From assembly GCA_944358375.1 (NCBI GenBank), contig CALVQT010000001.1:1-64000 (forward strand): 64,000 nucleotides of DNA, written 5' to 3'. The translations under genes and the position numbers were made by a program. This stretch comes from an uncultured Bacilli bacterium. GTDB taxonomy: Bacteria; Bacillota_I; Bacilli_A; RF39; UBA660. Under the pieces are notes generated by a model, which searched no databases, was not told where the DNA came from, and worked only from the letters and a program-made list of their open reading frames with translations. Shown piece by piece: positions 28,377-52,130 of the stretch (positions within the stretch are counted from its first letter, which is position 1; every line of letters begins with the position of its first letter).

Positions 28377-29160
28377 TTAAGAAATAGGTATTAATAATTC
28401 TTGATTTATTTGTAAAATAGTTGTGGATAAATTATTTAACTTTTTAATATTAGCGACAGTTGTATTATATTTTTTAGCAATAGAATACAATGTATCACCT
28501 TTTTTAACAACATATGTAATATAATTGTTTGGTATTTTCAATATTTGATTAATTTGTATAATATTTGAAGTTAAATTATTTAATTTCTTTATTTCATCTA
28601 CTGTTGTATTGTATTTATTAGCTATTGAATATAAATTATCTCCTTTTTTAACAGTGTATTTTATAAAAGAACTTTCATTAGTAGAATCTTGGGCGTCGTT
28701 AGTAGTATTAATTTTTAGTATTTGTCCTATTTTTAAATTATTAGAACTTAAATTATTTAATTTCTTAAGATTATCTACAGTTGTATTAAATTTTCTTGCA
28801 ATAGCCCATAATGTATCACCTTTTTTAACAACGTAAGAATCATTATTATTTGGTATATATGGTACATTTAAATATTCAGTAACTGCTCTAACTACAGCTT
28901 CTGCATAATTTTCATAATTATTTTTAATTTGATCTACATCATCTTTCGTACTATCAATAAATCCGTATTCTATAATTATACTCTCATTATTGGCTGTATC
29001 TCTTAACATAAAATAGTAATCTTTTTGTGGATTACTTGGAAGTCTTAATTGATAATATTTTCGTATATTTTGACCTTCTTTTTCTAATTCATTCAATATT
29101 AATTTAGATAGTGTAGATGTATTTCTTAAAGCATATATTACTTCGGCACCATCTCCACCT
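28377..29160 (-). pseudogene. N-acetylmuramoyl-L-alanine amidase, C-terminal half with three LysM domains
   Basis: The frame is open from the junction at 29160 and begins GDGAEVIYALRNTSTLSKLI, then QNIRKYYQLRLPSNPQKDYY and IIIEYGFIDSTKDD; this is the second half of an amidase_3 domain, including the catalytic glutamate of EYGF. Three LysM peptidoglycan-binding domains follow, each starting YVVKKGDTL or YTVKKGDNL and ending LKIGQILKI or similar. The first half with the zinc histidines is absent here and lies at 41.9-42.2 kb on the same strand. The gene is therefore split by the 12.76-kb insertion. The TTG at 29096 is only an internal codon. Excision of the insert would restore a protein of about 346 residues. 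Confidence 0.9.
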
Positions 29161-29186
29161 GGTGAGTTTAGTTTCCATTAGTAAAA
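29158..29186. other. Left attachment site of the integrated element
   Basis: The amidase frame breaks here. CCT at 29158-29160 is shared with the right junction (41915-41917). Immediately inside lies GAGTTTAGTTTCCATTA (29164-29180), whose reverse complement matches 14 of 17 bases of TAATGGTAAGTGAACTC at the other end. Confidence 0.85.
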
Positions 29187-29225
29187 TTAATCGATGACTT
29201 TTACTTAGCCATCAATTATATTATT

Positions 29226-29804
29226 TTAATTATCTGTTTGTAATTTTAAAGTTTTTACCATACTATTTGTTAATGTTGATTTTGCAAATTGTTCTTCTAA
29301 TATTAAAACACTATTTTTATATCTGCTGTATGCTTTATCATAGTTTCCTTGTTCTATTTGTTCAACACAGTAATCAACTATATTATCGTATATATAATCA
29401 TAAATAATATCAGATTTTTCTTCTCTATTAATTGTTTCAACAATTATTGGTGCTACTTCATAGTAATGTTCTATATCTTCCTTTGAAACAAAATTATCTC
29501 TAAACCATCTTAATACTGTTAATTCGTAACAATTGTCATCAAATTTCTCTTGAAAATATTTCATACAAGCAGAAGTCAAATAACAACCGCCAGATCCTGA
29601 ACTTGTATCACTTTTATCAGGTCCATGTGTTGTAGAACTCCATGAGCCCTTATCATAATTTACATTAACATGAGCTGCATCATGTGGTTTATCAACCGCT
29701 CCTCCATAAAAACTAACATGATCATTCCCTTTTTTATCAGTTGTTATTTTTATAGTAACCCCTTTATCATTTACATAATTTCCATACTTATCTCTATCTG
29801 CCAT
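29226..29804 (-). CDS. CFI-box-CTERM-like protein, element cargo
   Basis: The 192-residue protein has a glycine- and lysine-rich head (DRDKYGNYVNDKGVTIKITT, then FYGGAVDKPHDAAH) joined by a serine-glycine linker to GGCYLTSACMKYF followed by YELTVLRWFRDNFV. The last part matches the CFI-box-CTERM pattern, a cysteine-containing tail motif of unknown role; the head is not recognised. The start at 29804 follows a good GGGAGGTG site. It overlaps the end of the next gene upstream by 11 bases, so the two are translationally coupled. It is the gene closest to the left end of the element. Confidence 0.7.
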   Translation of the reverse strand: MADRDKYGNYVNDKGVTIKITTDKKGNDHVSFYGGAVDKPHDAAHVNVNYDKGSWSSTTHGPDKSDTSSGSGGCYLTSACMKYFQEKFDDNCYELTVLRWFRDNFVSKEDIEHYYEVAPIIVETINREEKSDIIYDYIYDNIVDYCVEQIEQGNYDKAYSRYKNSVLILEEQFAKSTLTNSMVKTLKLQTDN

Positions 29805-30153
29805 TATTAACACCTCCCATTTTAATTTCTGACATCCTTAAAGAAATAATTGCATCTAACCACACCAAAGACCACTCAGCAAAATAAGATTTCAAAGATT
29901 TCGTTTCAGTATCTAAATCAATTAAATCAAATTTAATATTTTGTAATATTTCTTCATTTATAGATACTAAACTTTCTTTATTCACATATGTTGCTAAAAT
30001 CGAATTAATTTCAACTAAAACTTTTTCAAAATTTTCTTTTTGCTCTTTGTATATATCTAATTGAGTTGAAGCTGTAACATAATAAATTAAGTTTTTAAAA
30101 GCATAATCGATATTTTCTCTTGTTGGGCGTCCTACGTTAAAAGTTTCTTCCAT
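29794..30153 (-). CDS. Hypothetical protein, coupled to the CFI-box gene
   Basis: The 119-residue protein is helical and acidic, without signal peptide, membrane segment or recognised family (begins MEETFNVGRPTRENIDYAFK). A GGAAA-rich ribosome site is present. It overlaps the following gene by 11 bases and lies downstream of the serine recombinase, so it belongs to the element. It may be a partner of the CFI-box protein; nothing else can be said. Confidence 0.7.
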   Translation of the reverse strand: MEETFNVGRPTRENIDYAFKNLIYYVTASTQLDIYKEQKENFEKVLVEINSILATYVNKESLVSINEEILQNIKFDLIDLDTETKSLKSYFAEWSLVWLDAIISLRMSEIKMGGVNNGR

Positions 30154-30225
30154 TACAAAGTTTCCTTTCTTGTCTTTTATTATAGACTTTTTTTAAAATA
30201 AATCAATAATTATAATAATTAAATT

Positions 30226-31878
30226 CTATTTTTCCTTTTTTCCATAAGGATTTCTAACTAAATACCTATTTTCATACATAAAATTAATATCTGGTATTAC
30301 ATCATACTTAAAAATAATAGTTATATTTCTATTTTCATCAATTACTATTTTATCTATTAAAGTATTTATTAACTCTTTTCTGGGTTTCTTTAAATCCAAT
30401 AGTTCTTTTATTTTCTTTGTATAATCCGGAAGTATATTTGCTTTATTCTTTATATTTTGTTTTTTTATTTTTTCTTCTTCAATTATGTCATTAATCTTTT
30501 TTAATTTAATTTCTGACTCTGTAGATAATTCCTTATATAATTCAGGTGAAATTATATTATTACATCTATCACTATATAAAATGGATAACTTATTCATAAT
30601 TTGTTCTTTTTCTTTTAATAAGTCATTTGTTTTTTTATCTATATCTTCTGTTTCTTTATGAATATTTTTTTGTACTTCTTTATTTAATTCTTCTATATTT
30701 ATCTCTTTTATAAATATTGATACTGAATTATTAAATTGTTCTAGTATTTGTTCCTCTAAATAATCATATGGATAAAAGTGTGAACTACATCTTCCTCTCT
30801 TTGGATCTCTAGAATATTTATTACAATTAATAGACCAATAATCAAGTTTTTTTCTATAATAAACAGATAATCTATTACCACACTCTTTACAAAATATTTT
30901 GCCTTCTAAAATTCTTTTTGGTCTTTCTGTTTTTAAACTATAATTTCTAGTTTTTCTTTTTCCTAAAGAATTAACATATTTAAAAGTTTCTTTATTAACT
31001 AAAGGTTCATGAGTATCTTCAACTATTACCCATAAACTTTCATCTAATGTTATTTTCTTCTTTGACTTATAATTTACTTTTGTTTGAGTATGCTGAACCA
31101 TATCTCCAGAATAGATTCTATTGCTTAAAATTTTCTTTACTGTTGATATATTCCAACTATCCCTATCGATTAATCTAGAAGAATAATTTGTTTTCTTATA
31201 TCCTGCTGGTGTAGGAACATTCATATCATTTAATCTTGTTGCTATTTCTGTTGGCCCTATTCCTTCTGCTCTCCACTTGAATATTTTTTTTACAATTGGT
31301 GCAGTTTCTGGATTAGGTATTAAATGTCCTTTATCTAATGGATCTCTCATATATCCATAGCATGGAAGACTTCCTACAAATTTACCACTTTTTCTTTTTT
31401 CATTTAATACATTTCTAATTTTAATAGAATTTTGTTTACTATAATAATCATTACATGCAATTATAAATGTTGAAGAATCATTACTAGCTTGATTTTTAAA
31501 ACTATCATAAGATTCTAATATAGAAATAAATCTTATATTGTTCTCTGGAAAAAATGTTTCAATGTAATAACCAGTCATAACATGATCACGGCCAAGTCTT
31601 GATAAATCTTTTACTATTACACAATTAATTTTTTTATTATTAATATCTTCTAATAAACTTTTAAATCCGGGTCTTTCAAAATCAGTTCCAGAAAATCCAT
31701 CATCAACATATTCTTTAACTAAATTAAAATTATTATTTTTAACATAATTTCTTAATAATTCTTTTTGATTTATTACACTTTCACTATCAGATTCATATTT
31801 TTTGTCCTTATCTTCTTGAGATAATCTTATATAGATTCCAACATTGAAATCTAATCCATTTAAGTAAGTATTATTCAT
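30226..31878 (-). CDS. Large serine recombinase (integrase of the element)
   Basis: The 550-residue protein starts with a resolvase catalytic domain: GIYIRLSQED holds the nucleophilic serine at residue 20, and VKDLSRLGRDHVMTGYYIE the conserved arginines. A recombinase domain follows (GPTEIATRLNDMNVPTPAG, then WNISTVKKILSNRIYSGD), then a zinc ribbon beginning CKECGNRLSVYYRKK, then a coiled coil that in this class controls the direction of recombination. It would insert the element by joining attP to attB in the amidase gene. All visible catalytic motifs are intact, so the element is probably able to excise given its directionality factor. Confidence 0.93.
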   Translation of the reverse strand: MNNTYLNGLDFNVGIYIRLSQEDKDKKYESDSESVINQKELLRNYVKNNNFNLVKEYVDDGFSGTDFERPGFKSLLEDINNKKINCVIVKDLSRLGRDHVMTGYYIETFFPENNIRFISILESYDSFKNQASNDSSTFIIACNDYYSKQNSIKIRNVLNEKRKSGKFVGSLPCYGYMRDPLDKGHLIPNPETAPIVKKIFKWRAEGIGPTEIATRLNDMNVPTPAGYKKTNYSSRLIDRDSWNISTVKKILSNRIYSGDMVQHTQTKVNYKSKKKITLDESLWVIVEDTHEPLVNKETFKYVNSLGKRKTRNYSLKTERPKRILEGKIFCKECGNRLSVYYRKKLDYWSINCNKYSRDPKRGRCSSHFYPYDYLEEQILEQFNNSVSIFIKEINIEELNKEVQKNIHKETEDIDKKTNDLLKEKEQIMNKLSILYSDRCNNIISPELYKELSTESEIKLKKINDIIEEEKIKKQNIKNKANILPDYTKKIKELLDLKKPRKELINTLIDKIVIDENRNITIIFKYDVIPDINFMYENRYLVRNPYGKKEK

Positions 31879-31956
31879 TCATTCCTCCAATCCTCTTACT
31901 TAATTGGGTATTTAGACAAATGAATGATAACATCATTAATGAATAATTGCAAATCA

Positions 31957-32055
31957 TTAATTATTGTTTACTCCTTCTTCTTTCATTATCTCTTCGATTA
32001 AGTACTTCAAAATAAGATCTTTAAATGAAATTTTATTCAAATAGGCTCCTTTCAT
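31957..32055 (-). CDS. Small 32-residue protein next to the recombinase
   Basis: A strong AGGTGG site (about 32063-32068) stands seven bases before the ATG. The frame reads MKGAYLNKISFKDLILKYLI and ends EEIMKEEGVNNN. It is helical and charged, with no known relatives that I recognise. It lies in the 366-base gap directly upstream of the serine recombinase. Small proteins in this place may serve as recombination directionality factors, but that is inference. Confidence 0.55.
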   Translation of the reverse strand: MKGAYLNKISFKDLILKYLIEEIMKEEGVNNN

Positions 32056-32244
32056 ATTTAAACCACCTATTTAAATTTATGTTTAAAATTATTTTTTTAT
32101 CATGCATATATCAACTTCCTTTCTCTTTTTAAATATATAAAATAATTTTATAATAAATATATAATATTAATATTTTTTATATTCTATTTATTATATTATT
32201 ATGGATATAAAGATCCATTGAATGTAAAATATACATCCAATTAA

Positions 32245-32544
32245 TTAGAACATTTCTTCTAAAGTAACGGATGTATATTTATCTTTGTTAATGTAAATTT
32301 TTCTTTGAAATTTATGTTTATATTCCATAGTTATATAATTATTATCTGATAATTCTTTTAATAGTTTAGTTATTCTTCTAGATCCTACTCCTATTAAATT
32401 ACCTAAGTAACTATTATCAGCATAACAATATCCTTCTTTATATGTAAGTAATAACAGTCTAGCATATAACAATTTACCACTATGTCCTATATTCTTATCA
32501 TCAGCTAAAAACATTGGAATTTTTAAATATTTGTCAAAGTTCAT
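32245..32544 (-). CDS. Helix-turn-helix protein, replication-initiator-like
   Basis: The 99-residue protein opens with FDKYLKIPMFLADDKNIGHSGKLLYARLLLL, shown here by its parts KYLKIPMFLAD and GKLLYARLLLL, which matches the N-terminal winged-helix domain of RepA_N/HTH_36 proteins. The recognition helix is probably SRRITKLLKELSDNNYI. Only the DNA-binding part is present, so it could be a regulator or origin-binding protein rather than a full replication initiator. It overlaps the RHH gene upstream by four bases (ATGA), so the two form an operon. Confidence 0.7.
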   Translation of the reverse strand: MNFDKYLKIPMFLADDKNIGHSGKLLYARLLLLTYKEGYCYADNSYLGNLIGVGSRRITKLLKELSDNNYITMEYKHKFQRKIYINKDKYTSVTLEEMF

Positions 32545-32711
32545 TTATCAGTCTCCTTTCTTAATTCTTTAGTATTAATTTTTAACATTTCTAAATAACC
32601 CATTTCCATTAATTGAGTCATCATTTTAGAAATAGATATTTGATAGAAATCTGCCATTAATTTAATTCTATCAAATAGTTCTATTGGTAAATATAATTTA
32701 AATATTCTCAT
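32541..32711 (-). CDS. Ribbon-helix-helix DNA-binding protein
   Basis: The 56-residue protein starts MRIFKLYLPIELFDRIKLMA and continues ISISKMMTQLMEMGYLEML: a beta strand followed by two helices, the arrangement of Arc/CopG repressors. Such proteins bind operators as dimers and often control plasmid copy number or partition. The start at 32711 follows AGGAGG with a six-base gap; the upstream extension to 32789 has no support. It precedes the HTH gene with a four-base overlap. Confidence 0.7.
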   Translation of the reverse strand: MRIFKLYLPIELFDRIKLMADFYQISISKMMTQLMEMGYLEMLKINTKELRKETDK

Positions 32712-32803
32712 AACATTCCTCCTATCTTTATTTAAATTAAACAACAAAAAAGACTTACATTTTATAAGCCTAATTACATAAAATAGCAAACAAAATCCCT
32801 CTA

Positions 32804-32930
32804 AAGGAGAAAATCTCCTTTAATATGTTTAAACTATAACATATGTTTTTTACCCCTTTTCATATTTCATTTTAGTTCTTTGAAATATGTTATAGTTTAA
32901 ACTGTATTCATCTTATATTTCTATAAGATA
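32804..32930. repeat. Folded intergenic DNA with 18-base inverted repeat
   Basis: GTTTAAACTATAACATAT (32827-32844) is repeated exactly in inverse at 32885-32902, separated by 40 bases. Two further hairpins flank it: TAAAGGAGA/TCTCCTTTA near 32804-32823 and ATCTTATA/TATAAGAT near 32911-32930. The region separates the RHH-HTH pair from the next HTH gene on the same strand. It could be an operator pair for the RHH protein, an origin, or a folded leader. Confidence 0.65.
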
Positions 32931-32989
32931 GGTTCTAACATAAGCCTTATATCTTACTGAGCCTCTTATAACTAACGTCCTTTGACTCT

Positions 32990-33247
32990 TTAGTTAAGTG
33001 TTACTGTGTACATTCCGTTTGAGTATTCTTGATATATTAGATAATTTAACTCTTCTAATATCTTAAGACTTTTTCTCAAACCTTTGTTTTTGATGTTAAC
33101 TACTTGCTGTATCTCTCCTACATTTATATCTGTTATTATTCTTCCGAATCCCTTGGTGTAAATGTAAGAGTAGATATATTTAGTCTCTTTTGGAATATTT
33201 TTATTCTTCCAAATCTCTTTTGGTACTTCTAAATACCTAATTCTCAT
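32990..33247 (-). CDS. Helix-turn-helix (HTH_36-like) DNA-binding protein
   Basis: The 85-residue protein begins MRIRYLEVPKEIWKNKNIPK, followed by ETKYIYSYIYTKGFGRI and a helix-turn-helix (VGEIQQVVNIKNKGLRKSLK, then a wing). The layout matches HTH_36 domains found in plasmid replication and regulatory proteins. It is the first gene of the leftward operon and is read from a consensus promoter that faces the XRE gene. It is likely a regulator or origin-binding protein of the element. Confidence 0.65.
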   Translation of the reverse strand: MRIRYLEVPKEIWKNKNIPKETKYIYSYIYTKGFGRIITDINVGEIQQVVNIKNKGLRKSLKILEELNYLIYQEYSNGMYTVTLN

Positions 33248-33297
33248 CTACTCTATCTGTCTCCTTTCTATTGATGTAAAACTCATCAATTGCAATT

Positions 33298-33326
33298 ACT
33301 ATACTATTATATATTGAGTTTGTCAA
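33298..33326 (-). promoter_or_regulatory. Leftward consensus promoter of the element
   Basis: On the minus strand TTGACA (33321-33326) and TATAGT (33298-33303) are 17 bases apart. The promoter drives the HTH operon and lies back to back with the XRE promoter. Confidence 0.75.
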
Positions 33327-33345
33327 TACTTTTTTATACAATTTG

Positions 33346-33374
33346 TTGACTTTTACATCACATTGTGATATTAT
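33346..33374 (+). promoter_or_regulatory. XRE promoter with operator between -35 and -10
   Basis: TTGACT (33346-33351) and TATTAT (33369-33374) are 17 bases apart. The spacer contains ATCACATTGTGAT (33357-33369), a palindrome about one central base. A protein bound there would block RNA polymerase; the XRE protein encoded downstream is the obvious candidate. Confidence 0.7.
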
Positions 33375-33403
33375 TAACTTGTATTTGAAAGAGGTGTATT
33401 TTT

Positions 33404-33934
33404 ATGCGTAAAAATAATACAACTGAATTAGGAGAATTAATTAAAAATAAAAGAGAAGAATTGGGTATTTCACAAAGAGCTCTTGCTCGTGAAGTTAATA
33501 TGGATTGTGCTGAAGTTTCTCGAATTGAAGCTGGTAAAAGACAAAAACCTAATATTCTCTACTTAAAAGGTATATCTGAAACACTTAATATTAGTTTAGT
33601 ACAATTAATGAAACTTGCCGGATATAGTGATGTAGAAATAAATTGGGGTACTGATTTTTCAAATAAAAGATCAACTACTGATTACCAAAAACAAATTGAA
33701 AGCTATGAAAAGTTTTATTTTGATGTATTAGAAGATATAGAAATTAGAAGAAAAAGTGCATTTGAATGTAAAGGCATATTTGCTGATATTATAGATAGAA
33801 TTGATAACCCTGGATATTATTCATCAGAAATAACTTTAAAAGATATTTCAGAAAAACTAAAAGAAGCCTCAAGAGTAATAAACAAAAATATGGAAAAATT
33901 TGATAAAGATAAATTACCTAAAAACTTATTTTAA
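33404..33934 (+). CDS. XRE-family regulator of the element
   Basis: The 176-residue protein has an N-terminal HTH: LIKNKREELGISQRALAREV, then MDCAEVSRIEAGKRQ, typical of Cro/C1 and SinR relatives. The C-terminal 100 residues form an unassigned helical domain that may dimerise or sense a signal. It is transcribed divergently from the leftward HTH operon, and its promoter contains a palindrome. This is the usual layout of the master switch of an integrative element, so it probably controls excision or replication genes and its own synthesis. Confidence 0.85.
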   Translation: MRKNNTTELGELIKNKREELGISQRALAREVNMDCAEVSRIEAGKRQKPNILYLKGISETLNISLVQLMKLAGYSDVEINWGTDFSNKRSTTDYQKQIESYEKFYFDVLEDIEIRRKSAFECKGIFADIIDRIDNPGYYSSEITLKDISEKLKEASRVINKNMEKFDKDKLPKNLF

Positions 33935-34368
33935 TAACTATCCTACTTTATCTGATTTTTTTATGCAAAAATTACATTCTTAAATAAGCAGGATAAGAAG
34001 ATGGCGCCACAAAGTAAAAAATCCTTATAAAATAAGGAAACTTAGTGGTGCCATTCTTATTTCGTACTTACGAAATTCATCCTACTTAGTAGGTTGAGAT
34101 AAAGGATAATTAATAGGTTTATCATTATTTTATAAGACAATTAATATCTTATATATCATCCTACATTTGAAAAATATAGGGAAATAGTAGGATAGTAGAC
34201 TTTGTTACAAAAATTCGCACACAAAAAACTCAAGTTATTAAAATTAGATAAAAATAAAAAATGAAATAATATAGACATAGTTCTTACCAACTAATTATTT
34301 CATTTCTTTAAATTTTTATAAAAATAGATGAATATTATTCCAGCTGATTTTAATATTAAATTTAATTT
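33935..34368. other. Folded non-coding region, candidate origin or structured RNA
   Basis: No gene is visible in 434 bases. Four hairpins follow each other. First, 33995-34014 pairs imperfectly with 34041-34060, enclosing a perfect TCCTTAT/ATAAGGA hairpin (34022-34038). Second, ATTTCGTA/TACGAAAT at 34059-34076. Third, CCTAC/GTAGG at 34081-34093. Fourth, ATCCTAC (34158-34164) with GTAGGAT (34187-34193). ATCCTAC or its complement occurs at 33940, 34079, 34158 and 34187, with a fifth partial copy, GTAGG, at 34089, like iterons. A mobilisation or replication origin fits best; a structured RNA is an alternative. Confidence 0.55.
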
Positions 34369-35541
34369 CTATCGTTCATCAATACTAAATAATTTTTCTG
34401 CCATTGTTCTAATAACATCTACATTAACAGCATTTCCGAACTGTTTATAAGCTTGTTGATCTATTTCATTAGGAACAAATGTATCTGGGAAACTTTGTAA
34501 TCTTGCCGCTTCTCTAACAGTTAGTTTTCTTTTGTATTTACCAACAATTGGAATTTGAACCATAGCAACTAATGCAGGAAAACAAGTTGGCTTTTTTACC
34601 CTAATCCCTGAAGGTCTGCATTGAATCAAACCATCCCACAATGTATCAATACTATCCCCTGCTTGCCATTCCATTTTTCTTTGCGTAGGTGTAAAATCTT
34701 TTAAATTATTATATTTTTTTAACCACTCATTAATAAATTCTTTATTATTCTTATAAAGTTCATTATTTTTTCTAACAAATTCTGCTTTCCACTCTGGCAT
34801 TTCTTTTGTTGGCTTTTTTTTAAAATATTCAGCCCATATTGGGAATCCTATAATTTTTTCATCAATCCCTTTATAAAATTCATCCCACGCATTTAAAATG
34901 TATTCTTCTTTATCACTTATATAATATTTATCTTCTACTCGTTTATTTACTAATATATCTTCAATATTATTTTCTTCTTTTGTTTTTAAATTATCTAAAC
35001 ATATTTCTAAATCATTATCTTTATTTTCAGGGTCATATATACCTAAAATAACTACTCTTTCTCTCAATTGAGGAACTCCTAATTGATGTGGACTTAGAAT
35101 AATAGGTTTTGGTGTTAGCCTGTAACCTATATCTTTTAAATGTTTATAAATTGTTTTCCATGTATTTCCACTATCATGAGAAACAAGATTTCGAACGTTT
35201 TCTAAAATTATATATTTTGTTTTATGATATTTAAGTATTCTCTCTATTTCAAAAAATAAAGTACCTTTTGTTTCATCTTTAAATCCAAGTTGTTTACCCG
35301 CTTTTGAAAACGCTTGGCATGGGAAACCAGCACATAAGACTTCGTGCTTAGGTATATCTTTTTCATTAACCTCTCTAATATTGCAATCTGCATTTATTCC
35401 ATAATTTTTATTATAAGTTTCTATAGCATACTTATCTATTTCAGAAGCAAAAACACATTTGCCCCCAAGTTGTTCCATAGCTTGATGAAATCCACCGATA
35501 CCTGCAAATAAATCGATAAATTTGAATTCTTTTCTTTTCAT
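34369..35541 (-). CDS. DNA cytosine-5 methyltransferase of a type II R-M system
   Basis: The 390-residue enzyme shows all main motifs: I FIDLFAGIGGF (residues 8-18), IV GFPCQAFS with the catalytic cysteine at 75, VI ENV at 114-116, VIII QLRERV at 158-163, IX RLQSFPD and X GNAVNVDV. It transfers a methyl group from SAM to C5 of cytosine in a target sequence set by the variable region, about residues 175-330; the target cannot be read from the sequence. The neighbouring upstream gene encodes the cognate endonuclease. The start at 35541 follows GGTGG; the TTG further upstream does not have a ribosome site. Confidence 0.93.
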   Translation of the reverse strand: MKRKEFKFIDLFAGIGGFHQAMEQLGGKCVFASEIDKYAIETYNKNYGINADCNIREVNEKDIPKHEVLCAGFPCQAFSKAGKQLGFKDETKGTLFFEIERILKYHKTKYIILENVRNLVSHDSGNTWKTIYKHLKDIGYRLTPKPIILSPHQLGVPQLRERVVILGIYDPENKDNDLEICLDNLKTKEENNIEDILVNKRVEDKYYISDKEEYILNAWDEFYKGIDEKIIGFPIWAEYFKKKPTKEMPEWKAEFVRKNNELYKNNKEFINEWLKKYNNLKDFTPTQRKMEWQAGDSIDTLWDGLIQCRPSGIRVKKPTCFPALVAMVQIPIVGKYKRKLTVREAARLQSFPDTFVPNEIDQQAYKQFGNAVNVDVIRTMAEKLFSIDER

Positions 35542-35589
35542 TTTTACCACCCTATACAATTATAATCTATTTTGTTTGAAAAAGCTACC

Positions 35590-36867
35590 CTAATCTGACA
35601 ATAATTCACTTAAAATTATTTCTTCTTCTGTTAGTTTATCCAAATTAATTACAAGTTTATCTCTCCTTATGTTTCCGTTTGGATTTTTTAAACCTCTAAG
35701 CAGGGTATGTTTAGTTAATCCTTTACTATCTATTGTAATAACTTTTATTTCTTTTGGTATAAACTTTGTTTTTAATTTCCTATGTTTCTTTTTTTTAGCA
35801 ATATTATCGAGTTGATTTTTGCTTAAACCACCCTTTAACTCGTTACGCCAATCACTAAATTCCCTATCCACTTCTTTTTCTGCATCTCCACTTAAAATAA
35901 TAAACCCAATTTTTCCATAGTCATTTAAAGCTAATTCTATTGCTTCCATATCATTTGTTATTATTTGATTATTATCATTAACATGTACTTTAAAATCCCA
36001 TGGTATATTATAAAAACTATCAAAGACCGTTTTTCCATATCTAGGTCCAGGAATTTCTAATAATTGCTCAATTCTACTCTCTTCTCGTCTTAATTCTCTT
36101 TGCATTAAATATTCTAAAAAGAATCCTTGCCATTCTGTTTGAGCCCAATTTCTATAATTATTTTCTTTCATTTCTTTTAAACATTCTTTACCGTCCCAAA
36201 CAGAATTTCTTCCAATCAAATCTTCTTTTAAATAACCAACTATTCCGTCTAAAAACATATATTCATCAATATCTTTATTAAATTCATTTAAATATTCAAT
36301 AAAAGAAATTTGATGTTCCAGATAAAAATAATTATAGTTTATGAAATCATTTAAATATTCTGGTTTAAAACAATATATATTATTTCCAACTTTATCTTTT
36401 CTTTGACTTACACCATTTTTTGCAGCTAATAATATATCATTGGTATATACGTGACTTGATTTTGATTTTCCTGCTTTCTTATTAGAACTAGAATCCCACG
36501 CTACTAAAATTAAATTATTTTCATCATATAAATATAAACCTATCATCAATGTTATATTATCATGAGTATTATCTTTTTCTAAAAAACTTCTATCTGCAGA
36601 ATCAGACAATTGCATACGTTTTTTATATTTTGGATGAGGTTTTCCTAAATATGTTACACATGATAAATATAAATTTATTTGAGTTATCCCACTGCTAAAA
36701 GACATTCTAAAATTATATGGTTGTTGTTTTTTATTTATCCACTCTATATCTACATTACTTTTTTTTAATATTTTTTCAAATATATCACATTTTTTATTGT
36801 TTGAACGTATATATTTATCATATCCCTCAATTATTTCCTCATTATATACTTGTTGAACTAAAAACAT
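35590..36867 (-). CDS. Type II restriction endonuclease, unknown specificity
   Basis: The 425-residue protein lies 48 bases upstream of the cytosine methyltransferase in the same direction. A PD-(D/E)XK-like nuclease site is visible in the second half: GPRYGKTVFDSFYNIPWDFK gives D283 and the pair D291-x-K293, with E245 (AQTEWQGFF) as a possible helper. The remainder has no recognised domain and presumably includes the target-recognition part. The pairing with the methyltransferase supports restriction; the isoschizomer group is unknown. The ATG at 36867 follows AGGTGG directly; the GTG three codons upstream is part of the site. Confidence 0.8.
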   Translation of the reverse strand: MFLVQQVYNEEIIEGYDKYIRSNNKKCDIFEKILKKSNVDIEWINKKQQPYNFRMSFSSGITQINLYLSCVTYLGKPHPKYKKRMQLSDSADRSFLEKDNTHDNITLMIGLYLYDENNLILVAWDSSSNKKAGKSKSSHVYTNDILLAAKNGVSQRKDKVGNNIYCFKPEYLNDFINYNYFYLEHQISFIEYLNEFNKDIDEYMFLDGIVGYLKEDLIGRNSVWDGKECLKEMKENNYRNWAQTEWQGFFLEYLMQRELRREESRIEQLLEIPGPRYGKTVFDSFYNIPWDFKVHVNDNNQIITNDMEAIELALNDYGKIGFIILSGDAEKEVDREFSDWRNELKGGLSKNQLDNIAKKKKHRKLKTKFIPKEIKVITIDSKGLTKHTLLRGLKNPNGNIRRDKLVINLDKLTEEEIILSELLSD

Positions 36868-36883
36868 ATTAACCACCTATATA

Positions 36884-36892
36884 ATTATAACA
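36884..36892 (-). promoter_or_regulatory. Extended -10 promoter of the R-M pair
   Basis: The minus strand reads TGTTATAAT here, directly after the terminator of the upstream ATPase gene and 17 bases before the endonuclease start. The R-M pair can thus be expressed independently. Confidence 0.6.
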
Positions 36893-36893
36893 T

Positions 36894-36921
36894 AAAAACT
36901 CAGTCAACTAACTGAGTTTTT
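36894..36921. terminator. Terminator between ATPase and restriction genes
   Basis: AAAAACTCAGT and ACTGAGTTTTT form a perfect 11-base stem with a six-base loop and a T run on both strands. Confidence 0.85.
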
Positions 36922-36929
36922 AGTATATT

Positions 36930-38822
36930 TTATACATTATCAAAATGGTTTTTTATATCAATTATTTCCTTGGTAATATCATCAAATGTTAGATTTAAAG
37001 AATAATAAAATGGCATTTTTTGACTTTTTGAATGTACTTGTTGATTTAACATTACTTTTTTACTCATTAAATATTCTTTTGTTACTTTGCTTGAACCAGA
37101 CCATCTGTTTCCACTAAATACATATCTTACTTTTTGACCAAATAGTTTTCCATTTAAATTTTCATCACCATTTAAATTATCATAAAATTGCTTTTCAACC
37201 CAAGCTCTTATTGCTGCATTGTATATTATTTTATTTGCAGTATTATTAAGGTATGATTCGTTTTGAAATGTAGTTGGTTCAAAGTTATCAATTAAATTAA
37301 CCAAGTAATCATTTGTATAAACAACACCATTTATTGTCTTAGAAAATGGTGAATCATAATGAAAAATCAAATGATTGTCATCAGTTTCTTCCCATGAATC
37401 TTTATCTAACAATAATTTTAAATAATTAAAATGCACATAAGTATTATCTATATTATCCATTAATTTCTCAACACTTAATACATTCGCTGTAGTAGTATAA
37501 GGCAAAGAATTTAGAAATAAAGTGTTATTTTTCTTTTCAATTATTTCATATTCAAAAAGAGCATTATATTGTGAGTTTGCAATATTAATTGTATCTATAT
37601 TATGAGTAAATATTAATATGTTTTTGTGCTCTTTTTTTGACGAAGTAATTTCATAGATTATTCTATATTGATTTGGTATATCGTAACTACTTAGTGGGTC
37701 ATCAATAACCAAAGTAGTTTTATCACTAGATATAAACTCAAGAATACATATAATAAAAGTCATTAAATTAATTTCTCCAGTACTATAAGTTTCAACATTT
37801 CTACGTAACTTTATTTTAATAGTTTTTTGTATATCATCAAAAGAAATGTCACTTTCTTCTACTGAAAATTGTAACTTAAAAGTTGAAATAACATCTTCTT
37901 TATGTAATTTTAAATTATTATAGAATTGCTCCTTTTCTACTTCTAATTCATTTATTCTTTCATTTATGTCAGATAAAGTTTGTTTTGAAGCCATTATTAA
38001 TTCAGCTTTATCTGAATTTCCACCACATAAACAATAATTTTCAACATTTTGAATGGTAATATTATTTTCACTTATAACATTTTTAATAGAATTTAGATTT
38101 TCCATTATTTCCTCTGGTTTTAAATCAGAGTGAGTATCTTGATAATTTTTAATAATTTCATTTTCTATTTCTCTAATTTCTGATATTTTTCTATTAATTA
38201 TGTTTTTAATCGGTTCATCAGATGTATGTCCACAAACTGGACAAACGCAACTACTGTTATCTAAAAAGTTATTAATTTCCTCTAAAACTTTTTTTCTATA
38301 ACTATCTTTTAATTCCTCGACTTGAATTTGAAGTTCTTCAGCTTCTATAAACCTTTTAGCATTTGTGCGAAAAAAAGCTTGGTTATCTTCTGACATTTCA
38401 AATATACAGTCTAAATTTTCATTATTAAATTGTAAAATTGCAGTCTCTAAATTTTTCCTTTTAACCTCCATGTTGTCAGAAATAGATTTTGCTGTTTTTG
38501 TGCTAGTAATACCAACATTTTTTAAATTTCCTTTAATATCTATCGCATCTAACAATGATTGCTTTTCACTATTCTTCTTGGTTAGTTCAACAATACTTGC
38601 TCCGATTACAATATTATCTTTTTTACCTATTATAGAATCTTCTATGTCTTCATAATCTATAAATGCATAATCTTTATGTCTTTGTTTTATATTTTTATAA
38701 ATAGACGATTTTCCTGTTCCATTTGGACCTAAAATTATTTTTATTTTGTCACCTAAATTAATACTGAAATTTGAATCAAAATTTAAATGACCTATTTCTG
38801 TAAAATTATTTGAATCAAACAT
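36930..38822 (-). CDS. Zinc-hook ABC-type ATPase with PrrC/RloC-like C-terminus
   Basis: This 630-residue AAA_13-type ATPase has Walker A GPNGTGKS at 32-39, coiled coils on both sides of a zinc-hook motif C195-P-V-C198, a signature-like STGEINLM near 347-354, Walker B LVIDDP at 371-376 and the switch histidine in FTHN at 406-408. The ATPase part resembles RloC and Rad50. The C-terminal 220 residues contain R539-x3-E543 and N593-x3-H597, spaced like the R-E-H catalytic triad of the PrrC/RloC anticodon nucleases. If that holds, it is a suicidal tRNA nuclease kept silent by ATP and released by phage attack. It starts 13 bases after the AbiEii-like gene and is co-transcribed with it. Confidence 0.75.
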   Translation of the reverse strand: MFDSNNFTEIGHLNFDSNFSINLGDKIKIILGPNGTGKSSIYKNIKQRHKDYAFIDYEDIEDSIIGKKDNIVIGASIVELTKKNSEKQSLLDAIDIKGNLKNVGITSTKTAKSISDNMEVKRKNLETAILQFNNENLDCIFEMSEDNQAFFRTNAKRFIEAEELQIQVEELKDSYRKKVLEEINNFLDNSSCVCPVCGHTSDEPIKNIINRKISEIREIENEIIKNYQDTHSDLKPEEIMENLNSIKNVISENNITIQNVENYCLCGGNSDKAELIMASKQTLSDINERINELEVEKEQFYNNLKLHKEDVISTFKLQFSVEESDISFDDIQKTIKIKLRRNVETYSTGEINLMTFIICILEFISSDKTTLVIDDPLSSYDIPNQYRIIYEITSSKKEHKNILIFTHNIDTINIANSQYNALFEYEIIEKKNNTLFLNSLPYTTTANVLSVEKLMDNIDNTYVHFNYLKLLLDKDSWEETDDNHLIFHYDSPFSKTINGVVYTNDYLVNLIDNFEPTTFQNESYLNNTANKIIYNAAIRAWVEKQFYDNLNGDENLNGKLFGQKVRYVFSGNRWSGSSKVTKEYLMSKKVMLNQQVHSKSQKMPFYYSLNLTFDDITKEIIDIKNHFDNV

Positions 38823-38835
38823 ATATTTATACCTC

Positions 38836-39675
38836 CTACTTTACTAAAACAGTTTCTATTGTTTCTACTAAATTACCAATATATTCTAATATTTGATCAT
38901 ATTCTATATCTTTAGCATAGCTATATTTTTTAGAATACATTATCCATCTTTTTCTTAAGATATTACTTTCTTTTACTATTTTATAATTTTCAATAATATT
39001 TCCCCTAAATTCTCTTTTATTAAATGTATTTTCTATAGCTGTTCTTAAGTTACTCTTATTTATTTTTTCAGAATCTTTACTATATATTAAAAAAATATCA
39101 TAGAAGTCTCTCATTCTTCCATTAAGTTCTAACCTACTTAATATTGTCTCTAATTTTTCGGCTAATACCGTTTCGATATTATATGTATATACATTAATAT
39201 ATCTATCACCAAGAAGAGGTATATATTTAAAAATAATTGCTCTTGGAGTGATTGGATCTCCTGTTGCTACATCAATATGAAATTTTTCATTAATATTTTC
39301 TAAATTTGCAACAAAATTAAACCTAAAACCTCCATATTCGTCTTCATCTCGAATTGTATCTACATCAATTATTTTAAACGTTATACCATCATTTAAATCA
39401 ATATTAATAATATCAGAAAACATATCTATTAAAACTTTTTCATCAAACTTAGCATTTCTAAACATTGTGTCAATATCCATTGTACTTCTTGATTCAATAC
39501 CATATAATGTACTTAAATAAAATCCACCTTTAATAACAAAGTTTTTACTATGCTTACTATTAGATAATCTTTCAATAAATCTATCATACATATAAATTCT
39601 TAATAAAGTATTAAAATCAACATTTTTTTCAATAGATAAATTTCTTAATTTTGCTTTTAACTGCATACTATTCAT
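38836..39675 (-). CDS. AbiEii-type nucleotidyltransferase toxin
   Basis: The 279-residue protein has the AbiEii/MenA nucleotidyltransferase motifs: FVIKGGFYLSTLYG, then STMDIDTMF with the two metal-binding aspartates, FHIDVATGDP, and VLAEKLETILSR. Members add nucleotides to tRNA or another RNA and stop growth during phage infection. Its start overlaps the antitoxin gene by eight bases, the usual AbiE arrangement. Unusually, it is followed closely by a zinc-hook ATPase, which suggests that the three form one unit. Confidence 0.88.
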   Translation of the reverse strand: MNSMQLKAKLRNLSIEKNVDFNTLLRIYMYDRFIERLSNSKHSKNFVIKGGFYLSTLYGIESRSTMDIDTMFRNAKFDEKVLIDMFSDIINIDLNDGITFKIIDVDTIRDEDEYGGFRFNFVANLENINEKFHIDVATGDPITPRAIIFKYIPLLGDRYINVYTYNIETVLAEKLETILSRLELNGRMRDFYDIFLIYSKDSEKINKSNLRTAIENTFNKREFRGNIIENYKIVKESNILRKRWIMYSKKYSYAKDIEYDQILEYIGNLVETIETVLVK

Positions 39676-40294
39676 ACATCATACCTACATAATCCATTAC
39701 AATTTCTTTAACACCAAGTTTTTCTGCATATGAAGACAGTTTAACAATGTCTTTATCCTTTCTTTTAATATATTCTCTAACACTATATTTAATATGTTCT
39801 GAATCCATTCTATTTTTAGATCTGATAATATCGCAAATACATCTTTCAATATCATAAGCTTTTACTTTATTTCCCATAGGTGTTTCTACTTCTGTAAGAC
39901 CAAGTTCATAATTATCATTATCTACATAAAATACATTATGTTTTTTTAGATGCACACTATTGTAACTTCTTTTAACAGTTATATCATAAATATCATTTGG
40001 TGCTTTTATAGATAGTCCATAAAAATAAAGTGCTGTCATGTGAGAATATATTACGTTTGGCATACTTAAACTGAATACATAATAACTATCTTCTATTTTA
40101 TTGGAATCTATATAAATACCTGGTGATACTTTTTCTATCATTCCTTTTTCTTGCATAATCGATAGATACATTCTATGTATATCAAACATATCTAACTCTT
40201 TAGAAGTAATATAACCATTATTCTTTTTCATTAATTCTTGAATAATTTCTATATTGCTTTTATTTTTAAATTCTTTGAGAGACATCTTTTCCAT
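39668..40294 (-). CDS. AbiEi-type antitoxin and autorepressor
   Basis: The 208-residue protein has an N-terminal winged helix-turn-helix (NNGYITSKELDMFDIHRMYL, then EKVSPGIYI) and a C-terminal domain with VIYSHMTALYFYGLS and IERCICDIIR. This is the AbiEi antitoxin layout: the C-terminus counteracts the toxin, and the head binds inverted repeats in the promoter. Such repeats flank the -10 of the promoter 30 bases upstream, so negative autoregulation is likely. The ATG follows AAGGTGA. Confidence 0.88.
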   Translation of the reverse strand: MEKMSLKEFKNKSNIEIIQELMKKNNGYITSKELDMFDIHRMYLSIMQEKGMIEKVSPGIYIDSNKIEDSYYVFSLSMPNVIYSHMTALYFYGLSIKAPNDIYDITVKRSYNSVHLKKHNVFYVDNDNYELGLTEVETPMGNKVKAYDIERCICDIIRSKNRMDSEHIKYSVREYIKRKDKDIVKLSSYAEKLGVKEIVMDYVGMMYE

Positions 40295-40316
40295 ATTATC
40301 ACCTTTTTGACATTTC

Positions 40317-40352
40317 TACTGAAATTATACATTTATTCAGTAATTTTGTCAA
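40317..40352 (-). promoter_or_regulatory. AbiE promoter with operator repeats
   Basis: On the minus strand TTGACA (40347-40352) and a perfect TATAAT (40324-40329) are 17 bases apart. TACTGAA (40317-40323) and its exact inverse TTCAGTA (40336-40342) stand on either side of the -10, fitting an AbiEi operator. Confidence 0.8.
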
Positions 40353-40389
40353 GGTTGACATATAAAGTTTTTAAAAATGCTATTGTATG

Positions 40390-40398
40390 TGCTATAAT
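40390..40398 (+). promoter_or_regulatory. Extended -10 promoter
   Basis: TGCTATAAT lies upstream of the membrane protein gene; transcription diverges from the AbiE operon. Confidence 0.6.
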
Positions 40399-40423
40399 AG
40401 AAAACATTTAGAAGGTGATTTAT

Positions 40424-41107
40424 TTGTTTAAAAATATTGAAAAAAAATATAAAAATAACTTAAGAGAAAGTAAATTTAATAAATATTATTGGACTATTGC
40501 ATTAACATTAATGTTTATTTCTTTAATATTTAAAATGCCAAATAATATTAAAGCATATTTTATTTATATTTCACTTTTTATTTTAGTAATTATATATTTC
40601 GGAGTTGATTTTGTAAAAATTACTAAAAATTACACCATTAATAAAAAAACTACATTTTTAACTAAATTTAAAATTTATATTAAAGAAGTTGAAAATCAAA
40701 ATATAAATAATCTTATATCATTACTTAAACAATATAATTTTAAAACAAAAAATGATTTAAAAATGGCAATTGACTATTACAATAGTGAAAAACCAATTAA
40801 AGTTGAATCTAATTACTTAGGATGGATTGTATCTATTGCGCTAACCTTATCTTCATTTATAGAAATCGCATATAATACTGAAACTCAAGCAATAGACACT
40901 ACTAAGATATCTGTTATACTAGGTTCTACAGCAGGAATAATAATCGTATTTTTAATATCTATAATTTTTTTAAATTTTTTCATAAACTCAGTTGTTATTT
41001 CAAAAAAAAGATTACACTCAAATTTAAGCGAAGACTTAACATATATATATTTAAATTTTGACAAATATAAAAATCAATTATCAAAACAAAACAATCCTAA
41101 AAAATAG
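40424..41107 (+). CDS. Four-helix membrane protein of unknown function
   Basis: The 227-residue protein has two N-terminal membrane segments (YYWTIALTLMFISLIF and AYFIYISLFILVIIYFGVDF), a cytosolic stretch of about 70 residues, and two more segments (WIVSIALTLSSFIEIAY and VILGSTAGIIIVFLISIIFL). No family is recognised. It starts with TTG after AAGGTG and has its own promoter and terminator. Lying next to the AbiE genes inside the element, it may contribute to defence or to exclusion of related elements; there is no direct evidence. Confidence 0.7.
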   Translation: MFKNIEKKYKNNLRESKFNKYYWTIALTLMFISLIFKMPNNIKAYFIYISLFILVIIYFGVDFVKITKNYTINKKTTFLTKFKIYIKEVENQNINNLISLLKQYNFKTKNDLKMAIDYYNSEKPIKVESNYLGWIVSIALTLSSFIEIAYNTETQAIDTTKISVILGSTAGIIIVFLISIIFLNFFINSVVISKKRLHSNLSEDLTYIYLNFDKYKNQLSKQNNPKK

Positions 41108-41119
41108 GATTGTTTTTAG
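41090..41119 (+). terminator. Terminator
   Basis: AACAATCCTA and TAGGATTGTT form a perfect ten-base stem over five bases, then a T run. Confidence 0.85.
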
Positions 41120-41265
41120 TTATTATGATACTAACTTGAGCAAATTAATTTCATCGTCTAGAATCGTTTATTTTTCATTACAACTGTATTTCACCTTGAG
41201 TCATAATACTTTGCATAAATTTCTTTTTTATCAATAATATTATAGATGATATTCATTTAATGTAT

Positions 41266-41679
41266 TTAATTTACAGTCTCTTCTAATTTTTCGACAAACT
41301 TATTATATAAGTTCTCGTTATTATTATTTATTAGATCATCTTCTAATAATTCTTTACCTTTTCTTTTCAAAATCCGCATTATTCCAACTCTTACTAATGA
41401 GTGTCTTATATTTAAAAGCCATTGTTTATAACTATTGTTCGGACTATTAAACTCTGTTATTTGAAAACCTCTTAATCTTTTTTCTAAATTTTCAAGATGA
41501 TCTAAATCTTCTTTATATTTATATATTATTTTTTCTATTAAATTTTTATCAAATGGAATAATGCCATTAATCATATTATCTATTGTAAACAAATCATTAA
41601 TATATTCAGCATCTTCTTTACTATCCTTTACTTCATCTATTTTTTTAATAAGACTCATAATTGCATTGGTTTCAATCAT
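41266..41679 (-). CDS. Hypothetical soluble protein at the right end of the element
   Basis: The 137-residue protein begins MIETNAIMSLIKKIDEVKDS, is helical and rich in charged residues, and has no recognised domain. The ATG at 41679 follows AGGAGG with a seven-base gap; the hydrophobic extension encoded upstream to 41751 has no ribosome site and is probably not translated. It lies about 240 bases from the right attachment site and so belongs to the element. Confidence 0.65.
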   Translation of the reverse strand: MIETNAIMSLIKKIDEVKDSKEDAEYINDLFTIDNMINGIIPFDKNLIEKIIYKYKEDLDHLENLEKRLRGFQITEFNSPNNSYKQWLLNIRHSLVRVGIMRILKRKGKELLEDDLINNNNENLYNKFVEKLEETVN

Positions 41680-41769
41680 TATATTTCCTCCTTTCATAAA
41701 ATTACTTAACATTATTATAAACCATAAAAAGCATAAAAAGTATAAATACAATAAAAGATTTTAAAAAAA

Positions 41770-41810
41770 ACTAAAATAGTGTCTATTTATTACATAAACA
41801 CTATTTTAGT
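41770..41810. repeat. Perfect 13-base inverted repeat near the right element end
   Basis: ACTAAAATAGTGT (41770-41782) and ACACTATTTTAGT (41798-41810) flank a 15-base loop. It may be a terminator for leftward transcription entering the element, or a site used by an accessory factor about 100 bases from the crossover. Confidence 0.65.
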
Positions 41811-41883
41811 CGATTTAATCCATCAATTTAATTAACTAAACTAATTAATCAATTTATTCAAATATAGCCGTCTAAATGCCCAA

Positions 41884-42174
41884 TTAAATTATGTAATGGT
41901 AAGTGAACTCCGCTCCTCCTGCGTTTAAGTGATTAGAAATAACTAGTACATCATTTCCATTGCCATAAAAATCTTGAACTCTTGATGTTCTTTCATCAGG
42001 GGATAGGGAAGTATCATCATCTCTTGTTAATTGAACAGGAATTCCTAATTCTTTGAATCTATCATACATATATTTACTTATTAATAAATTATAATCTTTT
42101 TCTTTTATACCATTAGCAACAGCTCCAGGATCGTTTCCTCCATGGCCAGGATCAATTACTATTTTTTTATTCAT
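41884..42174 (-). pseudogene. N-acetylmuramoyl-L-alanine amidase, N-terminal half
   Basis: The frame starts at 42174 after AGGTGA and reads IVIDPGHGGNDPGAV with the first zinc histidine, KEKDYNLLISKYMYDRF with the zinc glutamate, and VLVISNHLNAGG with the second zinc histidine. After the GG encoded at the junction, the sequence leaves the family and ends ten residues later (AEFTYHYII). The second half of the domain and the LysM tail lie at 28.4-29.2 kb. The protein lacks the catalytic glutamate and cannot cleave peptidoglycan as it stands. Confidence 0.9.
41891..41920. other. Right attachment site of the integrated element
   Basis: TAATGGTAAGTGAACTC (41894-41910) is the right-end arm, followed by the crossover region with CCT at 41915-41917 and again at 41918-41920. 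The amidase reading frame resumes beyond it. Confidence 0.85.
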
Positions 42175-42298
42175 TTTTATCACCTAGTTTATTTTATGAG
42201 TATTAAAAAAAACGGTGTCGTATTAATAATTTATTATTCGAGTATATATATATTTAGACTTTTTATTTGCTTATTTATATCTATGTTTTAACGATTTT

Positions 42299-51593: not shown

Positions 51594-52022
51594 TTAATAC
51601 AATTCTTGACAAACTCCGGGATCAGGTGCATAAAAGCAATGATTTTTATACCTTCCGCTATTTCTTTGATTAAACCAAGTTGCTCTACAATCATCATCAC
51701 CACTTGGAGAATAAAACCATAGTGCATTGGTAGCAGGATAATAATATTCTCCTTTTAAAACTCTTTTTGCTAGTTCTTTTTCTTTAGTTGTTGCACTTCC
51801 ACTATAAAATAATTGGCTATTTGTACCAACAAAACCTCCTGGATTTTGGTAAACCACATCACTTATGCTTCTTATATTTTTAAAATCCAAACAATTTGCA
51901 ATTGCTCTATTAACTATAACATTTCCCACCATTAGCATCCCCAAGTCTCCTTCACCTAAAGCCTCTGCTCTCATTAATCTAGCACATAAGTCTAATTCTT
52001 TAGTTGTATAATTGATTAACAT
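51594..52022 (-). CDS. SleB/CwlJ-type cell wall hydrolase
   Basis: The 142-residue protein consists of one Hydrolase_2 domain: LCARLMRAEALGEGDLGMLM with the catalytic glutamate, VGNVIVNRAIANCL, and the late ALWFYSPSGDDDCRATWF. SleB and CwlJ degrade spore cortex, but many relatives in non-sporulating Firmicutes act on vegetative wall. No signal peptide is visible, so export would need another route. The start at 52022 follows AGGTGA. Confidence 0.82.
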   Translation of the reverse strand: MLINYTTKELDLCARLMRAEALGEGDLGMLMVGNVIVNRAIANCLDFKNIRSISDVVYQNPGGFVGTNSQLFYSGSATTKEKELAKRVLKGEYYYPATNALWFYSPSGDDDCRATWFNQRNSGRYKNHCFYAPDPGVCQELY

Positions 52023-52130
52023 AAAAATCACCTAGAATATTATATGATTATATATAAAATAAGTAATTATCTGTTGAAATTATGTTATTTATGTTATATA
52101 ATTAGTTTGTCTCATGAAATAATAGATCAT

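Follow-up and report, generated by a model that had tools for sequence, protein, structure and literature searches.

A large serine recombinase island splits a LysM amidase gene at a codon that is reused across many uncultured Bacilli

The 64,000-nucleotide stretch analysed here (the window; positions 1 to 64,000 of contig CALVQT010000001.1, from an uncultured Bacilli bacterium) contains a 12,757-bp island that is inserted in a LysM amidase gene, between its codons 87 and 88, and both junctions could be read directly. That an island splits this gene was proposed in a first-pass annotation of the window, and the observation is confirmed: the two halves lie on the same strand and in the right order, Pfam assigns Amidase_3 to the N-half and LysM to the C-half, the distance between the crossovers agrees with the 12.76 kb that had been given, and 87 and 259 codons add up to the 346 residues of the joined amidase. 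The integrase of the island has the Resolvase, Recombinase and Zn_ribbon_recom domains expected of a serine-recombinase element. On these sequences it is virtually certain that we are dealing with a non-phage mobile island and its site. That the island, the site and a mother-cell gene as target belong together, the timing of excision set aside, is in our view likely. The features of the split gene and its integrase are:

28377..29156, minus strand: amidase C-half, 259 aa plus stop, beginning GDGAEV, with three LysM repeats (Pfam LysM; match to protein P0001)
29158..29160: left crossover repeat CCT (attL), central dinucleotide CC at 29158-29159
30226..31878, minus strand: large serine recombinase (integrase), 550 aa (PF00239, PF07508 and PF13408, all over cut-off)
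41915..41917: right crossover repeat CCT (attR), central dinucleotide CC at 41915-41916
41914..42174, minus strand: amidase N-half, 87 codons, ATG at 42174, ending HLNAGG (Amidase_3 2.6e-20, profile positions 1-78 of 174)

The open reading frame (ORF) of the N-half runs past 41914 through nine island-derived codons to a stop, down to 41884, and the C-half (29156-28377) has no start codon at the junction. The triplet CCT is common to both junctions, as had been noted, so the ends of the island are resolved only to within these three bases. The attP site rebuilt from the element ends consists of two inverted 17-base arms that match at 14 of 17 positions and are separated by ten bases, with the central dinucleotide CC (GG on the coding strand) exactly mid-way between them. 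This is the arrangement that the first reconstruction described, and it depends on the register: shifting the arms by 1-4 bases leaves 2-6 matches versus 14, and letter-shuffled arms of 18 elements gave a mean of 4.8 matches, none of them reaching 14.

Joining the chromosomal sides was predicted to give an unbroken frame through HLNAGGGDGAEV. Protein P0001, found on three contigs, carries exactly HLNAGGGDGAEV, uninterrupted across the junction position. Precise removal of the island would thus restore the reading frame, that of P0001 being continuous over the junction. Over C-half residues 1-104, the stretch examined, P0001 does not differ from the window; in the N-half it differs by one residue (compared by eye). 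It almost certainly comes from the same species, as judged from these sequences. P0001 is itself interrupted downstream, within its first LysM motif, where it ends GDTLFMGNNE; this break is evidently due to another element.

The same codon is used at many other loci. Alignment of the integrase led to 49 genome loci (designated by L numbers), mostly titled uncultured Bacilli and largely from metagenome assemblies, and BLAST found amidase fragments in 45 of them. The other four are L015, which ends a few bases beyond the same core, L016, where amidase sequence is reached at the contig end, L025, which is without assignment, and L033. All 18 complete elements cross over at the same codon and have a GG centre at both ends, and their attP arms match at 9-14 of 17 positions (mean 12.4 vs 4.8 for shuffles). 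GG stands at the same place in all 73 split C-halves. The arms are of at least six sequence types, sorted by eye, with the target codon constant, and the integrase is oriented opposite to the amidase in L037, L040 and L042-L047. At L033 (11880-11920), one island type ends at a GG from which the right arm of another type continues. Compared with this junction arm, left arms of the L107/L131/L150/L157 type agree at 13-16 of 17 positions and those of three other types at 5-6, and a second integrase lies at 20524-21639, so that L033 apparently holds two islands in tandem at one site.

Within one bacterial family, an amidase match was present in 92 of 117 genomes. The 80 loci fetched from this family yielded 52 intact copies, 26 split C-halves and 7 C-halves at contig edges, which were set apart, together with 11 N-type fragments (three of split genes, eight of a more distant paralogue). 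The search for a contiguous amidase in relatives, suggested in the first-pass annotation, was thereby answered by these intact copies as well as by P0001. A serine recombinase of our panel lies within 3.4 kb of 17 of the 26 C-halves; four of the remaining nine (L107, L131, L150 and L157) share another arm type, and their integrase presumably lies at the far end, outside the stretch fetched. The share of split genes is understated, since six known carriers of the family are not among the 80 loci. Tandem amidase copies were also seen: a C-half followed by an intact copy in L141 and L116 (the C-half of L116 being at a contig edge), and two intact copies in L144.

A second family of serine recombinases, INT2, with 33-40% identity to the first (521 aa in L049), splits the LysM repeats of the same amidases at GDT-x-W and leaves the tail FMGNNE behind. 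Splits of this type occur at L049:13642-16842, in L092, L111, L124 and L134, and in proteins P0001, P0002, P0006 and P0010. In L049 both element types are inserted and the amidase gene is in three pieces.

Comparison of integrase and amidase DNA shows that the islands are mobile between species. The two identities are weakly coupled over 903 pairs from 43 loci (Spearman 0.15), and for this reason vertical inheritance of the kind known for the skin element was rejected as the sole account. In 65 of the 75 pairs with integrase identity above 0.90, the amidase identity was lower by at least 0.15; integrase and amidase identities were 1.000 and 0.790 for L038/L039, 0.998 and 0.738 for L004/L010, and 0.990 and 0.631 for L022/L023. 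Near-identical integrases lie in strongly diverged amidases, and the islands therefore pass from one species to another and insert anew at the same codon. The split halves show no visible decay. The C-half stays open for at least 200 aa in 68 of 73 cases, the five short ones being accounted for by second-site insertions (L038, L049), contig ends (L046, L138) and a partial extra copy (L050), and every one of the 25 N-halves ending at the site has an open frame of at least 79 aa. This lack of decay fits recent insertion, selection for re-formation, or both.

To judge by their genes, the hosts are genetic spore formers. Spo0A_C scored over cut-off in 107 and SpoIIP in 98 of the 117 genomes of the family. 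A sigma-K model was matched in all 24 carrier genomes, the best score reaching 274 bits or more in 21 and exceeding the strict cut-off in nine; generic sigma factors also matched this model in 11 of 14 control genomes, none over cut-off. The split gene of the window has a promoter-like sequence of the corresponding type:

42190..42218, minus strand: sigma-K-type promoter AC-N-CATAAAATA, just 5' of the amidase start

The word searched for was AC-N15..18-CATAnnnTA at 30-52 bases before the start, where we take AC and CATAnnnTA to be the letters of the sigma-K consensus. It precedes 32 of 64 amidase copies (22 of 45 intact and 10 of 19 split) vs 20 of 1129 control ORFs (Fisher p = 1.9e-31). The 20 control matches include 11 members of the SleB-like hydrolase family, an amidase copy missed from the set and a collagen-like gene, and the word thus appears to pick sporulation genes. 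In the window, a SleB-like Hydrolase_2 gene (51594-52031, minus strand) has the same word at 52038-52064. In the published sigma-K consensus, 14-16 bases separate a five-base -35 element from a ten-base -10 element (PMC517825).

The amidase is also lost together with a sporulation gene: of the genomes without SpoIIP, 14 of 19 lack the amidase, vs 11 of 98 of those with SpoIIP (p = 6.6e-8), the figures being 9 of 13 and 10 of 94 when genomes of 0.8 Mb or less are left out. Because the hosts are spore formers, the promoter is of sigma-K type and the gene is co-lost with SpoIIP, the amidase is very probably a late mother-cell lysis gene of the CwlC kind, and the analogy with skin, drawn in the first-pass annotation, would be better than its reader knew. 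By eye, no signal peptide is evident in the protein. Synteny of the genes flanking the amidase is weak, the commonest neighbour, a SleB-like hydrolase, being near 14 of 53 copies.

We propose that the large serine recombinase joins the attP of the island to an attB lying within conserved catalytic-domain codons of the amidase gene. As the target would be a mother-cell lysis gene in a spore former, losing it should cost a growing cell little. In at least some sporulating cells the island would leave precisely and re-form the full-length amidase, as skin, SPbeta and gin do. A serine integrase of this class may need a directionality factor to leave, as SPbeta has in SprB, and a candidate lies 5' of the integrase:

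31957..32107, minus strand: two overlapping tiny ORFs, 24 aa (32107-32033) and 32 aa (32055-31957), found by eye

Similar tiny ORFs are present in many relatives, as one merged ORF in more distant elements, and a word, AACATAAATTTA, recurs among them.

The remaining genes of the island are:

29226..30153, minus strand: two ORFs at the integrase end, one CFI-box-CTERM-like (29226-29804; NCBIfam match below cut-off) and one of 119 aa (29794-30153)
32245..33934: control module with an HTH_36 protein and two small ORFs (minus strand) and an XRE regulator at 33404-33934 (plus strand)
34369..35559, minus strand: C5-cytosine DNA methyltransferase (PF00145 8e-84; PADLOC DruM2/DruM 1.2e-109, MTase_II 5e-99)
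35590..36876, minus strand: restriction-enzyme-like partner with MTaX1 domain (PF20296 1.1e-25; PADLOC REase_II 1.8e-16)
36930..38822, minus strand: AAA ATPase, weakly like candidate defence ATPases (AAA_13 2.7e-4, below cut-off; PADLOC PDC-S06 3.3e-11, LmuB 1.5e-7)
38836..39675, minus strand: AbiEii toxin-like nucleotidyltransferase (PF08843 6.8e-35; PADLOC 7.5e-92)
39668..40294, minus strand: AbiEi antitoxin-like protein (PADLOC 2.1e-58; Pfam AbiEi_4 below cut-off)

By predicted function this cargo is anti-phage defence: the C5-methyltransferase and its restriction-like partner, the AAA ATPase and the two AbiE proteins, a toxin-antitoxin pair. Among their 96 ORFs of 100 aa or more, integrases aside, the 17 complete relatives have 12 C5-methyltransferases, two McrBC, two D12 methylases, two MutH-like proteins, one EcoRI-type methylase and one AlwI; a PADLOC scan of these relatives gave the same methyltransferases. 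No phage structural or packaging genes, and no relaxase or conjugation genes, are among the Pfam matches of the window island's ORFs, and none of the latter kind is among the 25 most frequent of the 47 families represented in the 96 ORFs of the relatives. A phage origin was rejected, there being no phage genes and all 601 phage records that match the integrase having less than 60% identity. The control module has 96-100% protein identity to those of L005, L017 and L021, whose integrases have just 84% and 72% identity to that of the window, so modules are exchanged between islands. A 62% relative of the AAA ATPase occurs within L022, and the CFI-box-CTERM-like ORF beside the integrase has relatives in 6 of the 49 integrase loci and the 119-aa ORF in 0 of 49. 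Relatives of the integrase in the PDB are TnpX, SPbeta YokA and the TP901-1 integrase, the YokA match spanning residues 12-514. In L001, a viral contig of 15.8 kb, a 57% integrase relative adjoins another serine recombinase and a protein of 673 aa resembling, by eye, a VirD4/TraG-type coupling ATPase, so that some integrase relatives may ride on conjugative elements.

We read the island as a variant of the class to which skin, SPbeta and gin belong, that of gene-intervening elements. Of the known elements, gin comes closest: it interrupts gerE of Bacillus cereus ATCC 10987, is 28.6 kb long with three recombinases, has proven sporulation-timed excision and is identical in two strains (PMC5595907). 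Like the island, it is non-phage, carries a serine recombinase and restriction-modification genes, targets a mother-cell sporulation gene and has a short core repeat and inverted-repeat att sites; in contrast, the island has one recombinase, a wall amidase as target, a range of dozens of species and an excision that is inferred. SPbeta in spsM and skin in sigK of Bacillus subtilis share with the island a serine recombinase and the in-frame re-formation of a gene, and spsM is under sigma-K, a likeness to our sigma-K-type amidase; they differ in being prophages or prophage remnants with proven excision (PMC4191935). Excised forms of the yin element in yabG were present at all time points (PMC10747680).

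CwlC is known to have amidase activity. The window amidase resembles the late mother-cell wall hydrolase genes of B. subtilis, to which we assign it by promoter, phylogenetic profile and domain: cwlC and cwlH encode late mother-cell lysis hydrolases, and CwlH is sigma-K-dependent according to a title cited in the same paper (PMC517825). The staphylococcal cassette chromosome (SCC), with its serine Ccr recombinases, is a further parallel in being a serine-recombinase cassette with variable cargo and a single chromosomal site, and is unlike the island, whose site is not rlmH; the match of the integrase to the CcrB model of NCBIfam is weak (6.7e-29, 101 bits vs a cut-off of 900). Insertion of SCC leaves rlmH functional. 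Neither the titles nor the abstract openings of the open-access literature searched report an amidase gene split in this way, and the word amidase is absent from the main text of the papers on intervening elements that were examined for it. As far as this literature reaches, the target gene, the breadth of species, the convergence of diverged integrases on one codon and INT2 at LysM repeats are new.

That the halves are merely two separate genes, or that the window is an assembly chimera, has practically no probability: the comparison loci are largely metagenome assemblies, one of them titled Methanobrevibacter, but P0001 spans the junction exactly, which we regard as refuting such a reading already, and all 18 complete elements share the codon of the break and have a matching inverted repeat. 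The site, its centre, its unoccupied form, the reuse of the codon across species and the movement of islands between species are read from the sequences themselves. An ordinary and effectively one-way integration, in which the gene is simply killed, excision is rare and has no developmental role, and the host tolerates the loss since other wall amidases or the SleB-like hydrolase suffice, falls in our estimate somewhat short of an even chance. The islands move frequently between species and are replaceable, and such an element could well be an ordinary island tolerating a low-cost site. Several other observations count against our main reading. Another full-length Amidase_3 gene is present in 18 of the 24 carriers checked (a frame of 183-241 codons in 14 of them), so the split gene may be redundant and lysis may not depend on it, and an apparently intact close paralogue occurs in at least 8 of 49 carriers among the matches listed. 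The strict promoter word is absent in half of the amidase copies, no amidase was detected in 11 of the 98 SpoIIP-bearing genomes, and the genomes used are metagenome assemblies. For three element types, the exact attP word was looked for in viral contigs, the only set scanned, with 0 matches, and the sigma-K motif was found 5' of 0 of 61 integrases. A sigma-E-like word does occur 5' of 19 of 61 integrases vs 2.4 in letter shuffles; it proves little, because it sits in conserved codons of the tiny ORF, as in the window, where the word at 32074-32100 overlaps the tiny-ORF coding sequence. Sigma-E control of the integrase was rejected on this ground, and 4 occurrences vs 0.4 expected 5' of ORFs in 18 elements are too thin.

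Against one-way integration stands the state of the halves, nearly all of the split C-halves being open and the few short ones explained. Six of the 24 carriers (G009, G021, G022, G029, G033 and G034) show Amidase_3 fragments only, though their assemblies may be incomplete, and the target is of the mother-cell type, a gene class with known timed excision. Developmentally timed excision as such is a tentative proposal, which we lean slightly against. The reversible skin-like switch of the first-pass annotation stands in part: excision would restore the gene, and the sigma-K-type promoter, the spore-former hosts and the preserved halves agree with it, but our sequence analyses found no excised form, no sporulation timing and no directionality factor. 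A fully programmed switch, with excision confined to the mother cell and needed for its lysis, has the precedents of skin, SPbeta and gin on its side, in addition to the promoter on the split gene and the preserved halves in spore-forming hosts, and we hold it to be conceivable at less than even confidence; no sporulation promoter could be assigned with certainty to the integrase or to a directionality factor, and the islands are swapped between species with about two thirds of the classified copies intact, so the switch is not required.

On a more far-reaching reading, which we hold to be less likely than not, exchangeable defence islands would act as developmental switches in numerous species of a spore-forming gut lineage with small genomes: the lysis amidase would be off during growth, the island would come out in the mother cell, the lysis gene would thus be re-formed at the time of need alone, and several diverged recombinase types would have converged on one codon, with tandem stacking as in L033 and INT2 at the LysM repeats. 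In the boldest form of this reading, the excised island circle would be released into the cell whose lysis gene it turns on, and this would be a way out for an island without transfer genes of its own.

In the literature consulted, each known gene-intervening element is treated singly, with its one target gene, in cultured bacilli and clostridia. The amidase is a single wall-lysis gene on which islands land repeatedly in dozens of uncultured species, which would make it a natural replicated experiment on whether mobile elements choose mother-cell genes for low harm or the host gains a switch. The many matched attP/attB pairs, with different integrases and one conserved attB, should be useful for recombinase work. 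The site is also a case of anti-phage islands exchanged at a single codon, within a gene that may be turned on again when the island departs.

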